From NCBI GenBank assembly GCA_013373325.1, contig JABXIA010000091.1, forward strand, positions 1-45,344: a DNA stretch of 45,344 bases. The letters are read 5' to 3'. A program made the position numbers and the translations under genes. This DNA is from Paracoccaceae bacterium. GTDB lineage: Bacteria > Pseudomonadota > Alphaproteobacteria > Rhodobacterales > Rhodobacteraceae. The stretch's first letter is position 1; each line of letters opens with the position of its first letter. The notes beneath the pieces are model-generated. The model was not told where the DNA came from and searched no databases. It was given only the letters and a program-made list of their open reading frames with translations. Positions 28,328-35,390 of the stretch are shown here, piece by piece.

Positions 28328-28466
28328 CTCTTGCATTTTCCAGTGGTCCGGGGATAGAGGCATGAACGTTACTCATTGGCGTGCCGGTATCAACTCAAAT
28401 AACCGGCATTCCGTATCTTGACGGCGGCGGATTGCCGCCAGCACCTGCAGCGAAGGGAGCGTGCCC

Positions 28467-29339
28467 ATGTTCAAAGGCTCTATGCCAGCACTCGTTACCC
28501 CGTTTTCGAACGGTGAGCTGGATCTGGATGCGCTCAAACGCCTGGTGGAATGGCAGATTGCCGAAGGGTCAACTGGCCTGGTACCCGTCGGAACCACCGG
28601 TGAAAGCCCGACTTTGACCCATGAGGAGCACGAGCTGGTGATCGCGGAGACGGTCAAGGCTGCGGCTGGGCGGGTGCCGGTGATTGCGGGTGCAGGCTCG
28701 AACAACACCGTCGAGATGATTCGATTCGTCGAGTTTGCCAAGAAGGTCGGCGCCGATGCGGCGCTGGTTGTGACCCCGTATTACAACAAGCCGACCCAGC
28801 GCGGCATGGTGCAGCATTTCCAAGCTGCTCATGACTGTGCTGAGATTCCGATCATCATCTACAATATCCCCGGCCGCTCGGTGGTCGACATGACACCTGC
28901 AACCATGGGTGAGCTGGCCGAACTGCCGCGCATCATCGGGGTGAAGGACGCCACCGGTGATCTGGCCCGGGTCAGCCAGCAGCGCGCCTCCTGCGGTGCT
29001 GGTTTTGTGCAGCTGTCCGGCGAGGACGCCACCGCGCTGGGCTTCAACGCCCACGGCGGTGTTGGCTGCATCTCCGTGACCGCAAACGTCGCACCGAAGC
29101 TCTGTGCCGAATTCCAGGCCGCTACCCTGGCGGGCGACTATGCCAAGGCTCTGGAGTATCAGGACAGGCTGATGCCGCTGCACGAGGCGATCTTCATCGA
29201 GCCGGGCCTTGCAGGCGCCAAATACGGCCTGTCCAAGCTCGGCATGTGCAGCGAAGAAGTTCGCTCGCCGCTGACCACGCTGGAGGACAGCACCAAGGCT
29301 GCCATCGACGCGGCTATGGTGCACGCGGGCCTGCTGTAA
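28467..29339 (+). CDS. dapA: 4-hydroxy-tetrahydrodipicolinate synthase
   Basis: A 290-residue DapA of standard length, condensing pyruvate with aspartate semialdehyde in lysine and diaminopimelate synthesis. The Schiff-base lysine is Lys160 in [14 protein letters not shown], the catalytic tyrosine is Tyr132 in [13 protein letters not shown], the threonines are in [15 protein letters not shown] (Thr43/Thr44), and the second tyrosine lies in [11 protein letters not shown]. All match true DapA rather than only the wider superfamily. ATG 28467 is preferred because AGGGAG lies 7 nt upstream; a GTG at 28461 is too close. Confidence 0.95.
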
Positions 29340-29364
29340 TCTTTGTTCGCAGCTGAAAACAGGT

Positions 29365-29397
29365 AGGGTGGCCTCCATCCGAGTGCCGCCCTTTTTT
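29365..29397 (+). terminator. Rho-independent terminator of dapA
   Basis: An 8-bp stem with one G-T pair (29365-29372 with 29385-29392) and a 12-nt loop is followed by six T residues, 25 nt beyond the dapA stop. Confidence 0.82.
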
Positions 29398-29461
29398 GCC
29401 TCTTGCCGGTTGGAAATGCTCCGGAATGTGTTGCCCTGAAGGGGTGAGATGGGTTGCCCCT

Positions 29462-30343
29462 TCAGCTCAGAGCATCCGCAAGGTGCCGGGTCTTATCCGG
29501 GTTGCGGGTCACATAGATCCTTGTGATCTTTCCCTCCGCGATCTCCAGCGAGGTTGCTTGCAGGATACCATCCTCGGCTAGATTCAAAATCGCCGGCAGG
29601 CCGTTCAGGCGGCAAAACCGCCAGCGGGTCGGAACCGTATTGCCGAACTTGCGGGCAATGCCTTCTAGCAGCCGCAGAATCTTGTCCCGCCCGTAGATCG
29701 GATTGAGCGCCGCCATGGCCTTGCCGCCGCCATCCGAAATGAGCTGCACATCTTGCGCCAGAAGCTGAGTTAGGGCTGCTGTGTCGCCTGTCCTTGACGC
29801 CCGGAAGAAGGCTTCGGTCAAATCCTGTCCCCGGTCCGGGTCGGCCGGGACACGCGGCCGCAGGTCCTGCACCTTGCGCCTGGCGCGGGCAGCCAACTGG
29901 CGGCATGCCTCAGGGGAGCGGTTCAACGCGTTAGAAATATCATCGTAGGAACTTTCGAAGATATCATGCAGCAGGAAAGCGGCACGCTCCAGTGGTGACA
30001 GGGTTTCCAGTGCAAGCAGCAAGGCAACCGAAACGTCGTGGTCCAGCTGTTCTGTCGCGTCCTCTGTAAGCAGAGGCTCCGGCAGCCACTCGCCGGGATA
30101 GGTCTCGCGTCGCACACGGGCCGATTTCAGCTGGTCCAGGCACAGCCGGGTGGTGATCCGCATCAGGTAGCCGGTGGGGTCCCGAACCTCAGCCATTTCC
30201 GCGGTCTGCCAGCGCAGGAACGCATCCTGCAGGATGTCCTCGGCGTCGCTGACGGTGCCCAGCATCCGGTAGGCGGCCGCAAACAATCGCGGCCGCGCTG
30301 TCAGGAACGCATCGGTTCCGTCATTTTTGTGTTGAGCTGTCAC
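29462..30343 (-). CDS. ECF41-family RNA polymerase sigma factor with fused regulatory domain
   Basis: A 293-residue extracytoplasmic-function sigma factor. Sigma region 2 (AYRMLGTVSDAEDILQDAFLRW) and region 4 (LETLSPLERAAFLLHDIFESSYDDISNALNRSPEACRQLAARAR) are followed by a C-terminal SnoaL-like domain of about 110 residues. All three ECF41 hallmarks are present: WLPEPL (86-91) in the inter-domain linker, DGGGK (204-208) and NPDK (281-284). In ECF41 factors the C-terminal domain replaces a separate anti-sigma factor. The start is GTG at 30343, overlapping the stop of the upstream carboxymuconolactone-decarboxylase gene, the typical ECF41 partner. An inverted repeat (29436-29444 with 29457-29465) marks its 3' end. 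Confidence 0.92.
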   Translation of the reverse strand: MTAQHKNDGTDAFLTARPRLFAAAYRMLGTVSDAEDILQDAFLRWQTAEMAEVRDPTGYLMRITTRLCLDQLKSARVRRETYPGEWLPEPLLTEDATEQLDHDVSVALLLALETLSPLERAAFLLHDIFESSYDDISNALNRSPEACRQLAARARRKVQDLRPRVPADPDRGQDLTEAFFRASRTGDTAALTQLLAQDVQLISDGGGKAMAALNPIYGRDKILRLLEGIARKFGNTVPTRWRFCRLNGLPAILNLAEDGILQATSLEIAEGKITRIYVTRNPDKTRHLADALS

Positions 30344-30801
30344 GCGGCATTGGCCTCCTCAGCGGCAGGATGCGAGGTGCGGAAACCGATTGCAATGCGG
30401 TTCCAGGCGTTGATGGCGCTGATCAGCAGTGTCAGCACCACTTGCTCGCGCGGGGAGAACAGCCGGGTCATTTCCTCATAGTCTGTATCCGGCGCGCCGG
30501 TCTTTTCCACCCGGGTCAGCGCTTCGCACCAGGCCAAGGCAGCACGCTCCCGTTTCGAGTAGAGAGAAGATTCCCGCCAGGCATTCAGCAGCTGCATCCG
30601 GTCCTCGCTTTCGCCATGGGCGCGCAGGTCGTGGCTGTGCATGTGGATGCAGAAGGCACAGCCGTTGATCTGCGAGGCCCGGAGTTTCACCAGCTCCACC
30701 AGGCTGTGCTCCAGAGTGCTGTCCTTGAACAGCTTCTCCTGCTCCAGCATCGGCTGAAACAGGTCGGGAGCAATGGCGAAATAGTCGAGGCGTTGGGTCA
30801 T
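30340..30801 (-). CDS. Carboxymuconolactone decarboxylase / AhpD-family protein, ECF41 partner
   Basis: A 153-residue helical protein with the AhpD-type redox motif INGCAFCIHMHSHDLRAHG (Cys48, Cys51, His55). The opening MTQRLDYFAIAPDLFQPMLEQEK is typical of the alkylhydroperoxidase-domain proteins found beside ECF41 sigma factors. It lies first in a two-gene operon with the sigma factor (GTGA overlap). AGGAAC precedes the ATG, and a candidate ECF41 promoter lies about 35-60 nt upstream. Probable role: a thiol peroxidase or reductase expressed under control of its own sigma factor. Confidence 0.9.
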   Translation of the reverse strand: MTQRLDYFAIAPDLFQPMLEQEKLFKDSTLEHSLVELVKLRASQINGCAFCIHMHSHDLRAHGESEDRMQLLNAWRESSLYSKRERAALAWCEALTRVEKTGAPDTDYEEMTRLFSPREQVVLTLLISAINAWNRIAIGFRTSHPAAEEANAA

Positions 30802-30834
30802 TGGTCTGTTCCTTTCTGATGACTTCAGGAACAG

Positions 30835-30861
30835 GACGAGGCAGCCACGGCGTTTGTGACG
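30835..30861 (-). promoter_or_regulatory. Candidate ECF41-type promoter
   Basis: On the minus strand CGTCACA (30861-30855) is separated by 16 nt from CGTC (30838-30835), ending 34 nt before the ATG of the carboxymuconolactone-decarboxylase-family gene. The ECF41 consensus as I recall it is TGTCACA in the -35 and CGTC in the -10 element, so 10 of 11 positions match. This suggests that the sigma factor activates its own operon. Confidence 0.75.
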
Positions 30862-30881
30862 TCTTCGATGAAAAATACTTC

Positions 30882-30914
30882 AAAAAAACCGGGGCGCCTC
30901 AGTGGGCGCCCCGG
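30882..30914 (-). terminator. Rho-independent terminator of the sulfite dehydrogenase operon
   Basis: Perfect 10-bp arms (30889-30898 with 30905-30914) with a 6-nt loop are followed on the minus strand by seven T residues. It lies directly after the soeC stop and insulates the ECF41 operon. Confidence 0.92.
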
Positions 30915-30919
30915 GGATG

Positions 30920-31807
30920 TCAGCGTTTGCCGTAGTAGAGGCCGACCACATGTTCGGCTTGGGCAAAGAACAACCAGCGCGAGGCTGCGATGCCTGCGAG
31001 ATGCGACAGCACCGCGAGGGCAGCAAACACATGCTTGATCACGAGGCCCTGAACCGGGGTCAGGATCAGCAGCAGCGGCAGGACGAAGCCGAGTGTAAAG
31101 GCAATCATCCGCAGCTTCTGCGCGTGTTTGCGGCCCACCACATGCACGAACTCGCGCAAGAGGTAGTTGGAGCCGGTATGCGGCGGCTCAAACGCCCGCA
31201 CCGCGCCGCGATCACCCAGGCCGGTGGCGGTACCCAGATTGGTGCCGGAGGTTTCCAGCGCCTTGTCTCCCTTGGCCCAATAGGCCAGCTGCACCGCACC
31301 TGCAATGGCCAGAAGCCAAGGCGCCACGGCCTCGGCACCGGCCAGCAGCGCACCACCCGCCAGACTGAAGCTGAGGAACACCGCGGGCGTCAGCTCCATA
31401 TTCCAGCGCGGGATGGTCTTCAGCTGGGTGTAGATCATCGAGGTGGTGAAGACCGTAGCCAGGCTGAGTGCCGCACCGATCCAGCCCAGCAGGGTCCAAT
31501 GGCTGTCCATGAACACTGCACCAAGCGCGTAAAGGCCCATGACGATCAGTGCGCCAACGGCGCAGACGCCCTCACGGCTGAGCCAGCTGGATTTCCACTG
31601 GGTCAGCGCGCGCCAGGCGCGTTCCGGGTGGCCCAGGTGGAAAGTGGAGGCCAGAAGGCCGCCGCAGGCCAAGCCAAAGGCGATGGCGTAGAACACAAAG
31701 GCCACGGTGCCGGTCACAGCCGGCTGGCCGATCCCGAGGAAGAACAGCAGGCCAAAGCCCAGACCCGACAGAGTGGTAAAGATGATGACTGAGGGTGCGG
31801 GATGCAT
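30920..31807 (-). CDS. soeC: Membrane anchor subunit of sulfite dehydrogenase, DmsC family
   Basis: A 295-residue inner-membrane protein with about eight predicted helices, starting HPAPSVIIFTTLSGLGFGLLFFLG as in DmsC-type quinone-interacting anchors. FHLGHPERAWRALTQWKSSWLSREG is the conserved DmsC motif. It would hold the cytoplasmic SoeAB at the membrane and pass electrons to the quinone pool. Its start overlaps the stop of soeB (TGATG). Assignment to SoeC rather than another DmsC relative rests on the neighbouring pta-xsc genes. Confidence 0.88.
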   Translation of the reverse strand: MHPAPSVIIFTTLSGLGFGLLFFLGIGQPAVTGTVAFVFYAIAFGLACGGLLASTFHLGHPERAWRALTQWKSSWLSREGVCAVGALIVMGLYALGAVFMDSHWTLLGWIGAALSLATVFTTSMIYTQLKTIPRWNMELTPAVFLSFSLAGGALLAGAEAVAPWLLAIAGAVQLAYWAKGDKALETSGTNLGTATGLGDRGAVRAFEPPHTGSNYLLREFVHVVGRKHAQKLRMIAFTLGFVLPLLLILTPVQGLVIKHVFAALAVLSHLAGIAASRWLFFAQAEHVVGLYYGKR

Positions 31808-32571
31808 CAGTTCGCTCCTCCCGGAAGCTTGTCGAGGGCCTTGTCCAGCCAGCCCATGAAGCCCTGCGGCTCTTCAGCGACCGGAGCCAGCAGTGGGGCG
31901 AGGATGTCGATTTCCTCTTCGATGGTGTCCTTGGGGCGGGGCGGCAGGTATTTGTTCACGGGTTTGGTGCCCAATTCCGGCATCAGGTCCATGCCGCCGC
32001 GCTCGGCCACCAGTTTGGAGACATCGCTGTCCGGATCGCCCAGGTCGCCGAAATGGCGGGCACCTGCAGGGCAGGTCCGCACACAGGAAGGAATACGGTC
32101 AACTTCCGGCAGGTTTTCGTTATAGATCCTGTCCACACACAGGGTGCATTTCTTCATCACCCCTTCGGCCAGATCCAGTTCCCGCGCGCCGTAAGGGCAG
32201 GACCAGGCGCAAAGACCGCAGCCGATGCAGTGGTCTTCGTTGACCAGCACGATGCCGTCTTCAACGCGTTTGTAGCTGGCGCCGGTGGGGCAGACGGTGA
32301 CGCAAGGGGCGTCCTCGCAGTGCAGGCAGGACTTGGGGAAATGGATCAGCTGGGCGTGGCCCTGTTCCGGCTGTACCTCATAGGAGTGCACCCGGTTCAG
32401 GAAGGTGCCCGACGGGTCGCCGCCATAGGGGTTCTGATCGCTGAGCGGAGCGCCATAGTTTTCCGTGTTCCAGCCTTTGCAGGAGATCACGCAGGCATGG
32501 CAGCCGACGCAGGTGTCCAGGTCGATGACCAGACCCATCTTGCGGTCTGTAGAGTTGGGGAGCTCGGTCAT
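31807..32571 (-). CDS. soeB: Iron-sulfur subunit of sulfite dehydrogenase, DmsB family
   Basis: A 254-residue ferredoxin-like electron-transfer subunit with four cysteine groups for four 4Fe-4S clusters: CVGCHACVISCKGWN, CLHCEDAPCVTVCPTG, CIGCGLCAWSCPYG and CTLCVDRIYNE paired with CVRTCPAG. No twin-arginine signal is present, so it is cytoplasmic, as expected for SoeAB. An extended C-terminal tail (residues about 200-254) contains an acidic stretch and GFMGWLDKALDKLPGG. The ATG at 32571 overlaps the soeA stop (ATGA); a GTG at 32586 is less likely. Confidence 0.9.
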   Translation of the reverse strand: MTELPNSTDRKMGLVIDLDTCVGCHACVISCKGWNTENYGAPLSDQNPYGGDPSGTFLNRVHSYEVQPEQGHAQLIHFPKSCLHCEDAPCVTVCPTGASYKRVEDGIVLVNEDHCIGCGLCAWSCPYGARELDLAEGVMKKCTLCVDRIYNENLPEVDRIPSCVRTCPAGARHFGDLGDPDSDVSKLVAERGGMDLMPELGTKPVNKYLPPRPKDTIEEEIDILAPLLAPVAEEPQGFMGWLDKALDKLPGGAN

Positions 32572-35390
32572 TTGCCTACTTTCCACTTCAGTTCTTTCGG
32601 GCCGGTGCCGACCGGGGATTCCTGCGCCGGGAAGGCCGGCTGGCTTTCCTGCATGTCAGACGGCGCGGCGGCCTTTTCGATTTTGACTTTCAGGTCGAAC
32701 CAGGCCGCCTGGCCGGTGATGGGGTCCGAGTTGGCCCACCGCATGCCGTCGCCCTTGGCGGGCAGCAGCTCGTGGATCAGGTGGTTGAGCAGGAAGCCCT
32801 TGGTGGCTTCCGGCGCATCTTCCTCCAGCGCCCAGGCGCCTTTGCGTTTGCCGATGGCGTTCCAGGTCCAGACGGTGTTGTCATTCAATGCCGCCATCTC
32901 CATCACCGGCACGGTGATTTCGCCATGCGGTGAGGTGATCTTGGCCCAGTCGCCGTCCTGCAGATTGTTTTCACGCATCAGCTTGGTCGGGACATAGAGC
33001 GGGTTGCGGCCGTGCAGCTGGCGCAGCCAGGCGTTCTGGGTGCCCCAGGAGTGATACATTGCCATCGGCCGCTGGGTCAGCGCGTTGACGGTGAAACCTT
33101 CGTTCCCTTGCTGGTCAGTCTCATACCAGATCGGCAGCGGGTCCATCACGTCCTTGACCCGCTGGCGCAGATGCTCGGGCGGCTGGCGCTCGCCATGGCC
33201 TTCGGCGGCCAGCTGGAACTTGCGCATCGGTTCCACGTAAAGCTGGAACAGGTAGGGCTGCGGGCTGTCATAGAGCCCCATGCCCACGGCCCAATCCTGA
33301 TAGGCGGTGTTCCACGGTTTGTAGTAATCCGCACCTTCCGGGATGTGGGCCACATGGAAGCCGCCGTTTTCGATATACTGGTTCAGCTGCTCCGGGTTCA
33401 CTTCGCCGCGGCCGGTCTTGCTGCCGTCCTCGCCGCGGAAACCCGACAGCGGGCCGATGCCCGGCTTGCGCTCGTGGTTGACGATGTAGTCGGCGTAATC
33501 CTTCCACTTCGCGGTGCGGTCTTCGTTGGTGAAGCCGGGCAGCTTCATCCGGTTGGCCAACTGGATCAGCACTGTCTGGAAACCGCGCACGTCGCGGTCC
33601 GGCTCAATCACCGGCCAGCGGATGGCATCTGCAGCGGCGTCCGCCTCGCAGATCGGGCGGTCCAGCAGCGATATGCAGTCGTGGCGTTCCAGATAGGTGG
33701 TGTCCGGCAGGATCAGGTCGGCAAAGGCCACCATCTCGGAACTGTAGGCGTCCGAGTAGATGATATGCGGGATTTTGTAGTCGCCGTTCTCGTCCTTGTC
33801 GGTCAGCATCTCCATCACACCTTTGGTGTTCATGGAGGAGTTCCACGACATGTTGGCCATATACATGAACAGCGTGTCGATCTTGTAGGGATCTCCCGCA
33901 TGCGCGTTGGAAATCACCATATGCATCAGGCCATGGGCCGACATCGGGTTTTCCCAGGTAAACGCCTTGTCGATCCGCGCCGGGCTGCCGTCTTCTTTCA
34001 GCGCCAGATGCTCTGGCCCGCGCACAAAGCCCAGGTGCGGGCCGTCCAGCGGGGTGTCGGGCGTGGATTTGCAGTGCGGGGTCGGATGCGCCTCGACCGG
34101 CTTGGGGTAGGGCGGCTTGAAGCGGAAGCCGCCGGGAACCTCGACCGTGCCCAGAAGGATCTGCAGCACATGCAGCGCCCGGCAGGTCTGAAAGCCGTTG
34201 GCATGGGCCGAGACACCGCGCATCGAATGCATGGCCACCGGGCGGCCGATCATCTTGGTGTGCTTCTCACCGCGGAAGTCGGTCCATTCGTGATCAAGCT
34301 CAAAAGCCTCGTCAAAGGCGACGCGGGCCAGCTCACCCGCGATGGCGCGGATGCGCTTGGCCGGGATGCCGCATTTGTCCGCAACCGCTTCGGGCGCGTA
34401 TTCATCGGCCAGATAGCGTTCGGCCATCTGGTGGAAGACCGGGCGGTGGGTGACGCCGTCCTTTTCGTAGACCGCCGAAAGATCCGGGCGCACGCCGGGC
34501 TGGTCGAAGGGGGTCAGTTTGCCGGTGTTGCGGTCGATGACCAGCATCTTGCCGTCAGCATCACGCATCAGCAGGCCCTTTTCAGGCCCTTCCGAGGCGT
34601 TCACCAGCACCGGCGCGTTGGTGTAGCGGCTGAGGTAGTCGAGGTCTATCTTGCCGGCCTTCATCAGCACATGGATCATCGAAAGGATGAACAGCCCGTC
34701 GGTGCCCGGCGTGATACCGACCCAATCGTCCGCAATTGCGTTATAGCCGGAACGGATCGGGTTCACGCCAATCACCCGTGCGCCGCGCTTCTTGATCTTG
34801 CCGATACCCATCTTGATCGGGTTGGAATCGTGGTCCTCGGCAACGCCGAACAGCAGGAACAGTTTGGTGTGCTCCCAATCAGGCTGGCCGAATTCCCAGA
34901 AGGCGCCACCCATGGTGTAAATACCCGCTGTCGCCATATTGACCGAACAGAAGCCGCCGTGCGCAGCGTAATTTGGCGTGCCATAGCTTTGCGCCCAGAA
35001 GCTGGTGAAGCTTTGCGACTGGTCGCGGCCGGTGAAAAACGCTAGCTGTTCCGGCGCCTCGTGGCGGACAGGCTCCAGCCAGCCCACCGCAATCGCCAGC
35101 GCCTCGTCCCAGGTGATCTCTTTGAACTGGCCCGATCCGCGCGGCCCGGTGCGCAGCATCGGCGCCTTCAGGCGGGACGGCGCATTGACCTGCATGATCC
35201 CGGCGGAGCCTTTGGCGCAAAGCACACCCTTGTTCACAGGGTGATCGCGGTTCCCTTCGATATAGGCGACCTTGCCGTTCTTCATGTGCACATTGATGCC
35301 GCAGCGGCAGGCGCACATGTAGCAAGTCGTCTTGCGGATTTCGTCCGAGACCTTGGGTGAGGTGTCCAGGATTGGCTGCTGATGGGTCAT
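32568..35390 (-). CDS. soeA: Molybdopterin-containing sulfite dehydrogenase catalytic subunit (SoeA-like)
   Basis: A 940-residue member of the DMSO reductase molybdoenzyme family. The N-terminal 4Fe-4S ligands are Cys23, Cys26, Cys30 and Cys58 (C-x2-C-x3-C-x27-C). Mo-bis-MGD domains follow (KGSAGIMQVNAPSRLKAPML, FFTGRDQSQSF, GVAEDHDSNPIKMG); the cysteine in GGFCSVNMA is a candidate metal ligand. The C-terminal MGD-binding domain includes MAMYHSWGTQNAWLRQLHGRNPLYV. No Tat signal is present. SoeABC oxidises sulfite to sulfate in the cytoplasm and feeds electrons to quinone; the gene order next to pta-xsc supports that substrate. AGGA lies 9 nt before the ATG. Confidence 0.9.
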   Translation of the reverse strand: MTHQQPILDTSPKVSDEIRKTTCYMCACRCGINVHMKNGKVAYIEGNRDHPVNKGVLCAKGSAGIMQVNAPSRLKAPMLRTGPRGSGQFKEITWDEALAIAVGWLEPVRHEAPEQLAFFTGRDQSQSFTSFWAQSYGTPNYAAHGGFCSVNMATAGIYTMGGAFWEFGQPDWEHTKLFLLFGVAEDHDSNPIKMGIGKIKKRGARVIGVNPIRSGYNAIADDWVGITPGTDGLFILSMIHVLMKAGKIDLDYLSRYTNAPVLVNASEGPEKGLLMRDADGKMLVIDRNTGKLTPFDQPGVRPDLSAVYEKDGVTHRPVFHQMAERYLADEYAPEAVADKCGIPAKRIRAIAGELARVAFDEAFELDHEWTDFRGEKHTKMIGRPVAMHSMRGVSAHANGFQTCRALHVLQILLGTVEVPGGFRFKPPYPKPVEAHPTPHCKSTPDTPLDGPHLGFVRGPEHLALKEDGSPARIDKAFTWENPMSAHGLMHMVISNAHAGDPYKIDTLFMYMANMSWNSSMNTKGVMEMLTDKDENGDYKIPHIIYSDAYSSEMVAFADLILPDTTYLERHDCISLLDRPICEADAAADAIRWPVIEPDRDVRGFQTVLIQLANRMKLPGFTNEDRTAKWKDYADYIVNHERKPGIGPLSGFRGEDGSKTGRGEVNPEQLNQYIENGGFHVAHIPEGADYYKPWNTAYQDWAVGMGLYDSPQPYLFQLYVEPMRKFQLAAEGHGERQPPEHLRQRVKDVMDPLPIWYETDQQGNEGFTVNALTQRPMAMYHSWGTQNAWLRQLHGRNPLYVPTKLMRENNLQDGDWAKITSPHGEITVPVMEMAALNDNTVWTWNAIGKRKGAWALEEDAPEATKGFLLNHLIHELLPAKGDGMRWANSDPITGQAAWFDLKVKIEKAAAPSDMQESQPAFPAQESPVGTGPKELKWKVGK

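Follow-up and report, generated by a model that had tools for sequence, protein, structure and literature searches.

A predicted autoactivated ECF41 sigma factor operon in a genome assigned to Leisingera, with a conserved inverted repeat in its leader

The stretch of DNA analysed here (45,344 nucleotides, contig JABXIA010000091.1 of the Paracoccaceae bacterium assembly GCA_013373325.1; hereafter the window) carries on its minus strand a two-gene operon, in which a gene for a carboxymuconolactone decarboxylase (CMD)/AhpD-like protein (30340-30801, 153 aa) is followed by that of a sigma factor of the ECF41/SigJ type (ECF, extracytoplasmic function; 29462-30343, 293 aa, GTG start) with a C-terminal SnoaL-like domain. 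We consider it very probable (roughly 0.93) that this operon is autoactivated from the promoter CGTCACA-N16-CGTC and that it functions without a separate anti-sigma factor. The genes, their motifs, the promoter site and its conservation, the upstream terminator and the gene overlap are features of the DNA itself; for the two genes and the promoter, the coordinates given by the original prediction proved exact. Judged by the relatives of the locus (the best named one, for the sigma factor, being that of L. aquaemixtae DP2N28-1, 93% identity), the host genome belongs to Leisingera. As a whole the operon fits a class that has already been described, and its unexpected part is a conserved inverted repeat in the leader. 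The literature on which we draw comprises Wecke et al. 2012 (PMC3426412), PMC6180224, PMC3014915, PMC2988022, an Azospirillum paper (PMC12826043) and a review (PMC8999054).

Results

Sigma factor and CMD partner

The group assignment, made by the NCBIfam SigJ model (PRK09636) in place of the published ECF41 group model, yielded 358.3 bits for the sigma factor (cut-off 271). The Pfam sigma regions occupy residues 17-76 (PF04542) and 106-157 (PF08281), after which the protein continues to residue 293; WLPEPL begins at residue 86, DGGGK at 204 and NPDK at 281. The original prediction had listed these as the three ECF41 motifs, and all three are indeed present, but the grouping mixes the linker motif WLPEP with motifs of the extension (we take DGGGK and NPDK to be ECF41 extension motifs, their letters being absent from the main text of Wecke et al. 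2012). The published description places WLPEP in the linker between sigma2 and sigma4 and three more motifs in the extension (PMC3426412). Across 20 homologues W86, L87, P88, P90, D204, G206, G207, N281, P282 and K284 are invariant, and six of these (W86, P88, D204, G206, P282, K284) stay so in 11 more varied sequences. Within its own genome, the sole other match to the protein reaches 36% over residues 12-158.

A search of the PDB with the sigma factor returned SigJ (5xe7, E 2.4e-46). The same M. tuberculosis protein was, along its whole chain, the best Foldseek match (E 8.7e-17, probability 1.00) of an AlphaFold model built from a 20-row alignment (predicted local distance difference test 73.0, predicted template modelling score 0.56); other matches were S. 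tsukubaensis SigG1 (7qh5) and, further down, sigma domains and SnoaL/NTF2-like proteins. This structural match points to a SnoaL-like fold for the extension. SigJ shares with the window protein the succession of sigma2, linker, sigma4 and SnoaL-like domain, with WLPEP and NPDK aligned, but has DSNGK in the position of DGGGK. Several traits of the ECF41 group were encountered: sigma2 and sigma4 as the only sigma regions, an extension of ~100 aa, WLPEP in the linker, the extension motifs, a COE gene alongside (COE standing for CMD, oxidoreductase or epimerase; here it is CMD, directly upstream), and the lack of an adjacent anti-sigma gene among the sigma, CMD and three upstream genes, in whose five proteins no anti-sigma domain was found with Pfam and NCBIfam models.

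The partner had been described as a CMD-family redox protein, and its family is confirmed by PF02627 (64.3 bits, cut-off 23) and by the AhpD core model TIGR00778 (59.3 bits, cut-off 27.8). It carries the motif CAFCIHMH (CxxCxxxH), its nearest PDB entry is Atu0492 (2gmy, E 6.5e-43), and it is probably a thiol-redox enzyme. Its strict genetic coupling with the sigma gene and its CxxC motif might suggest that it controls the sigma factor, as its redox sensor or as an anti-sigma factor, instead of being a mere target, yet we regard this as highly improbable, given that co-expression of the CMD protein YdfG in B. subtilis had no significant effect on the activity of Ecf41Bli (Wecke et al., PMC3426412, data not shown there). 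The two genes overlap by 4 nt, the GTG start of the sigma gene lying within a GTGA shared with the CMD stop, and AGGAGG is found 10 nt upstream of this GTG; by way of the GTGA overlap, translation of the sigma factor is probably coupled to that of CMD.

Promoter and transcription start

The ECF41-type promoter (30835-30861, minus strand) consists of the -35 element CGTCACA (30861-30855), a 16-nt spacer and the -10 element CGTC (30838-30835), the latter separated by 33 nt from the CMD ATG. It differs from the ECF41 consensus (TGTCACA-N16+/-1-CGTC) by one mismatch, at -35 position 1, as the original prediction had stated, and its standing is strengthened by recurrence: each of the 19 Leisingera modules has the promoter ahead of CMD, with a spacer of exactly 16 nt in every case and a distance of 30-34 nt to the ATG. 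In a first set of 21 related loci it was recovered in all 13 from Leisingera, Parasedimentitalea and Pseudophaeobacter (11 of them identical in sequence to members of the 19-module set, with only L016 and L017 being new), while in the other eight (Mycobacterium, Mycolicibacterium, Thalassospira, Amycolatopsis, Cytobacillus) the site was elsewhere or not found. At the family level, ECF41 proteins (E <= 1e-40) were present in 22 of the 295 sampled genomes; among the 21 loci besides the window, 19 have a same-strand upstream site (18 of these with a 16-nt spacer), and none was found for L064 and L073. From the genome count, simple arithmetic gives ~4e-5 as the chance expectation for such a site on this strand of the 118-bp gap. 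No second motif match precedes the sigma gene within the window, and a simple scan of 29300-31000 found no sigma-70-type promoter; over the same interval nothing came near an Rfam gathering score (one long non-coding RNA match, 21.9 bits vs 45).

Transcription is predicted to start at G30826 (minus strand), 9 nt past CGTC and 24 nt before the CMD ATG. This assignment to the 9th base is an extrapolation from R. sphaeroides, since it combines the leader length obtained there by 5' rapid amplification of cDNA ends (5'-RACE) with the 31-nt CGTC-ATG distance in the corresponding locus (L060, taken as the RSP_0606 locus solely by a promoter string identical to that printed in PMC3426412). A G occupies this position in 19/19 Leisingera modules, and a start at G with a leader of 22/23 nt is described for both organisms studied by Wecke et al. 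(PMC3426412).

Across 21 Leisingera genomes, the module's own site is the only widely recurrent one among exact-consensus sites, a few others being common to two genomes; in G010, G012 and G013, which have a distant second ECF41 gene, some of the sites are close to that gene. The original prediction had also proposed a genome scan for other targets, and a near form of its pattern disclosed no excess of further sites: YGTCACA-N15-17-CGTC occurs 3 times in the own 4.5-Mb genome, as against 16 times for the reversed pattern. Additional targets of the sigma factor, sought by promoter pattern, were thus rejected.

Genomic neighbourhood and distribution

Upstream of the module, an intrinsic terminator (30882-30914, minus strand; 10-bp stem 30914-30889, T-run 30888-30882) closes a co-directional DmsABC-like operon (30920-35390, minus strand; molybdopterin oxidoreductase, 4Fe-4S subunit and DmsC-like anchor) that is not part of it. 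Five of the ten stem pairs are changed on both sides among 11 sequences, a figure equalled in 0 of 500 shuffles, and on account of this covarying terminator we regard the module as a transcription unit of its own. The catalytic subunit of the DmsABC-like operon (32568-35390) has PhsA as its nearest NCBIfam model, yet reaches only 204.8 bits vs a cut-off of 694. On the other side, the convergent gene at 28461-29339 (plus strand) is presumably dapA.

The DmsC gene adjoins the module in 13/13 loci of the set L006-L018 and 18/18 of the set L108-L125 (the two sets having 11 sequences in common), as well as in L057 and L058. In the same loci dapA lies downstream, save in L012, L013, L121 and L122, which are short, and in L016. 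Around the distant family loci neither DmsC nor dapA was seen, within flanks of only ~1.5 kb. Of the 21 Leisingera genomes, 19 possess CMD together with a close sigma orthologue (79-100%), and two lack the pair: at the thresholds used (E <= 1e-30 for ECF41), G016 has neither CMD nor an ECF41 protein, while the sole ECF41 protein of G013 is a distant one (39%), encoded elsewhere in the genome. DmsC and DapA are only ~530 nt apart in G013, vs the usual ~1590, and the interval (L144, ~1778-2312) contains an eroded remnant of the module: the terminator stem persists and both arms of the leader inverted repeat are intact, but neither promoter element is unaltered, the CMD gene has lost its start codon, and little is left of either gene.

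A second ECF41 arrangement was observed in L126 (2355-3305, minus strand) and L127, where the promoter is followed by a protein of 128-133 aa and then by the sigma factor. In L126 and, by inspection, in L069, a ~180-aa protein with CGPC is placed between the small first protein and the sigma factor, and L068, L069, L070, L074 and L075 resemble L126 by promoter position and a small first open reading frame. The first two proteins of L126 had no Pfam family at E 0.1.

The leader inverted repeat

The leader of the CMD gene contains the inverted repeat CTGTTCCT-N13-AGGAACAG (30806-30834, minus strand), with perfect 8-bp arms (30834-30827 and 30813-30806), of which the left directly follows the -10 element and the right overlaps the Shine-Dalgarno sequence AGAAAGGA. 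Among the 19 Leisingera leaders the arms are perfect in 18 (L114 has one mismatch) and only one of the 16 arm positions varies, vs 10 distinct loop sequences of 12-14 nt; the -10 element and the 11 bases after it are wholly invariant, and the arm centres are 21 bp apart in 14 of the strains. On the right side conservation includes the AACAGA past the Shine-Dalgarno core, does not extend to the following bases, and ends one base after the repeat. By way of a yardstick, only 22 of 143 third codon positions and 5 of 33 fourfold sites of CMD are invariant, with a longest invariant coding run of 11 nt (17 of the 19 strains, L121 and L122 being left out as the rule used missed their start codon). 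Perfect arms of at least 8 arose in 13 of 20000 shuffles of the window leader and in 33 of 6473 window tiles of 33 nt.

Copies of the palindrome (CTGTTCC-N13-17-GGAACAG) are found in the 21 Leisingera genomes at 18 modules and 11 times more, in 10 genomes, as compared to one copy for the reversed control; the remnant in G013 accounts for one of these 11 and a single recurrent sequence for six. This sequence differs from that of the module but has the same palindrome arms (CTGTTCC...GCGCTGCTGCAGGAACAG, a variant close to it, or its complement), and was seen in G003, G004, G007, G014, G017 and G018. In the window's own genome the module's copy is the only one. In the genus of L057 another repeat (TTTCTGA-N5-TCAGAAA) lies over the same site in 6/6 loci. 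Our literature search returned no paper that brings together ECF sigma factors, read-through and Shine-Dalgarno hairpins, and none on ECF sigma factors of Leisingera; ECF41 and hairpins occur together in four papers that it listed.

One explanation of the repeat would be a lock against read-through, by which messenger RNA arriving from the dms-like operon would pair CTGTTCCT with AGGAACAG, making the ribosome site inaccessible, whereas messenger RNA started by ECF41 at G30826 would lack the left arm and be translated. In this way accidental read-through would be prevented from setting off the self-amplifying circuit. For the full window leader the predicted fold (-10.9 kcal/mol, z -2.05; 8/200 shuffles as good) pairs the Shine-Dalgarno, and that of RNA from the predicted start (-2 kcal/mol) leaves it unpaired. 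Mean predicted accessibility of the Shine-Dalgarno in read-through RNA and in RNA from +1 was 0.21 and 0.53 in the 19 Leisingera, 0.10 and 0.53 in 11 near loci, and 0.50 and 0.61 in nine distant ones (a tenth, L077, was left out for want of a recognised Shine-Dalgarno); individual read-through values stayed within 0.05-0.22 in 30/30 Leisingera and near loci. Upon shuffling of offsets 1-10, equal hiding was rare (fraction <=0.08) in 15/19 Leisingera, 9/11 near and 2/9 distant loci. The arms are far more constrained than the loops and the third codon positions of CMD, their conservation passes the Shine-Dalgarno core, perfect arms are scarce among the leader shuffles, and the mechanism itself is known from the T4 genes e, soc and I-TevI (PMC3014915, PMC2988022). 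We nonetheless hold this explanation to be unlikely. Compensatory changes affect 0 of 8 pairs; Pseudophaeobacter L017 retains the left arm after loss of the right, so that the left arm may be a promoter element; and a good terminator already restricts read-through. In shuffles covering 12 chosen leaders of the 30 from Leisingera and near loci and all 10 distant ones, folding was ordinary in L016 (167/1000), L017 (419), L058 (214) and L134 (203) and borderline in L057, L130, L133 and L135 (51-105), whereas three distant leaders folded equally well or better (L128 10, L059 42, L062 52). Moreover, L058 is closed even from its predicted start, hiding in L110, L114, L119 and L121 is indistinct from that of shuffles, the strain counts are not independent because the strains share ancestry, and the G013 remnant, with both arms and neither promoter nor start codon, is a poor fit unless its decay was recent (a single case).

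A second explanation takes the repeat to be a DNA operator, bound over the start site by a separate repressor or activator. Both arms are intact in the G013 remnant, the perfect 8-bp arms overlap the predicted +1 with the 21-bp distance between centres that most strains share, and palindrome copies outside the module exceed the reversed control; on the other hand, the arm spacing differs by 2 nt among strains and the own genome is without a second copy, and we judge an operator to be decidedly improbable. The explanation towards which we lean, as a fairly probable one, is that the arms have separate jobs (the left as initially transcribed or discriminator sequence, the right as Shine-Dalgarno and its spacing) and that their complementarity is incidental. 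It agrees with the absence of covariation, with the retention of CTGTTCCTG in L016 and L017, whose right arm is altered, and with the frequency of perfect arms among the window tiles, and is less easily reconciled with the reach of right-arm conservation up to one base after the repeat and with the preservation of both arms in G013.

Discussion

From the relatives that have been tested we infer how the promoter would be used, where transcription would start, that the operon would activate itself and that the extension would control its sigma factor. A signal would act on the sigma factor by relieving its SnoaL-like C-terminal domain, and the sigma factor would then take RNA polymerase to CGTCACA-N16-CGTC and start near G30826 a transcript with the AhpD-like CMD gene first and the sigma gene second; as this transcript would include the sigma gene, the operon would amplify its own sigma factor, and a separate anti-sigma factor would not be needed. 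Partial removal of the extension rendered the sigma factor hyperactive (~20-fold in B. licheniformis, 120-fold in R. sphaeroides) and complete removal abolished its activity (Wecke et al., PMC3426412), and the window protein is expected to behave likewise, being hyperactive upon partial and inactive upon complete loss. The hyperactive 206-residue form from R. sphaeroides ends right after DGGGKV if the GTG start is real, a point that corresponds to residue 209, the end of DGGGKA, in the window protein.

A close tested counterpart is RSP_0606-RSP_0607 (Ecf41Rsp) of R. sphaeroides, which has the same succession of CMD and sigma factor with C-terminal extension, and whose promoter responds to its ECF41 sigma factor, with the start mapped by 5'-RACE (Wecke et al., PMC3426412). 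The sigma factor of L060 is 48% identical to that of the window, and TGTCACA-N16-CGTC stands before its CMD gene, at 31 nt from the ATG as compared to 33. The loci differ in the first base of the -35 element (T in L060, C in the window), in the gene overlap (11 nt in L060 if the GTG start is used, GTGA in the window), in the leader (that of L060 has no inverted repeat matching the window's) and in the surroundings (no DmsC in the ~1.5-kb flank of L060, a DmsC-like gene upstream in the window). In S. meliloti SMb20029-rpoE9, the promoter likewise comprises TGTCACA and CGTC, and the CMD gene just upstream is the sole detected target of RpoE9 (PMC6180224). The originally predicted positive autoregulation without an anti-sigma factor is thus supported as far as DNA data reach, the same design having been tested in R. 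sphaeroides and S. meliloti.

Several observations weigh against our interpretation. The sigma factor just misses the SigX4 model (TIGR02957; 316.7 vs 323.25 bits), and SnoaL_2 scores 21.3 bits in its C-terminal part, under the Pfam cut-off of 27. The window promoter deviates from the consensus at the first -35 base, a mismatch that represents natural variation: of the 19 Leisingera modules, 15 have T at this base, three (that of the window among them) have C and one has G. The motif is rarer in the own genome than its reversed form and therefore does not constitute a genome-wide regulon signal, in keeping with the single targets found in R. sphaeroides and B. licheniformis (PMC3426412) and in S. 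meliloti (PMC6180224); lacking such enrichment, the window copy is marked only by its position and conservation. Being absent from two Leisingera genomes, the module is dispensable within the genus. Furthermore, the R. sphaeroides operon gave no reproducible phenotype (Wecke et al., PMC3426412), on account of which the redox role of CMD is a guess.

The operon adds to a widespread sigma group a cleanly bounded new member, from a marine genus with many sequenced relatives, in which 19 sister sequences provide a footprint of the promoter. For the leader repeat, T4 e, soc and I-TevI offer a working analogy, in that a hairpin there covers the ribosome site and transcripts from the proximal promoter are made without its left arm (PMC3014915, PMC2988022); the T4 hairpins were experimentally shown and belong to phage genes, whereas that of the window is predicted only. 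If the window hairpin did silence read-through messenger RNA, it would account for the silence of a sigma factor that activates itself, has no anti-sigma factor and lies next to an active operon, and would bring the logic of T4 gene e to a bacterial ECF sigma loop.
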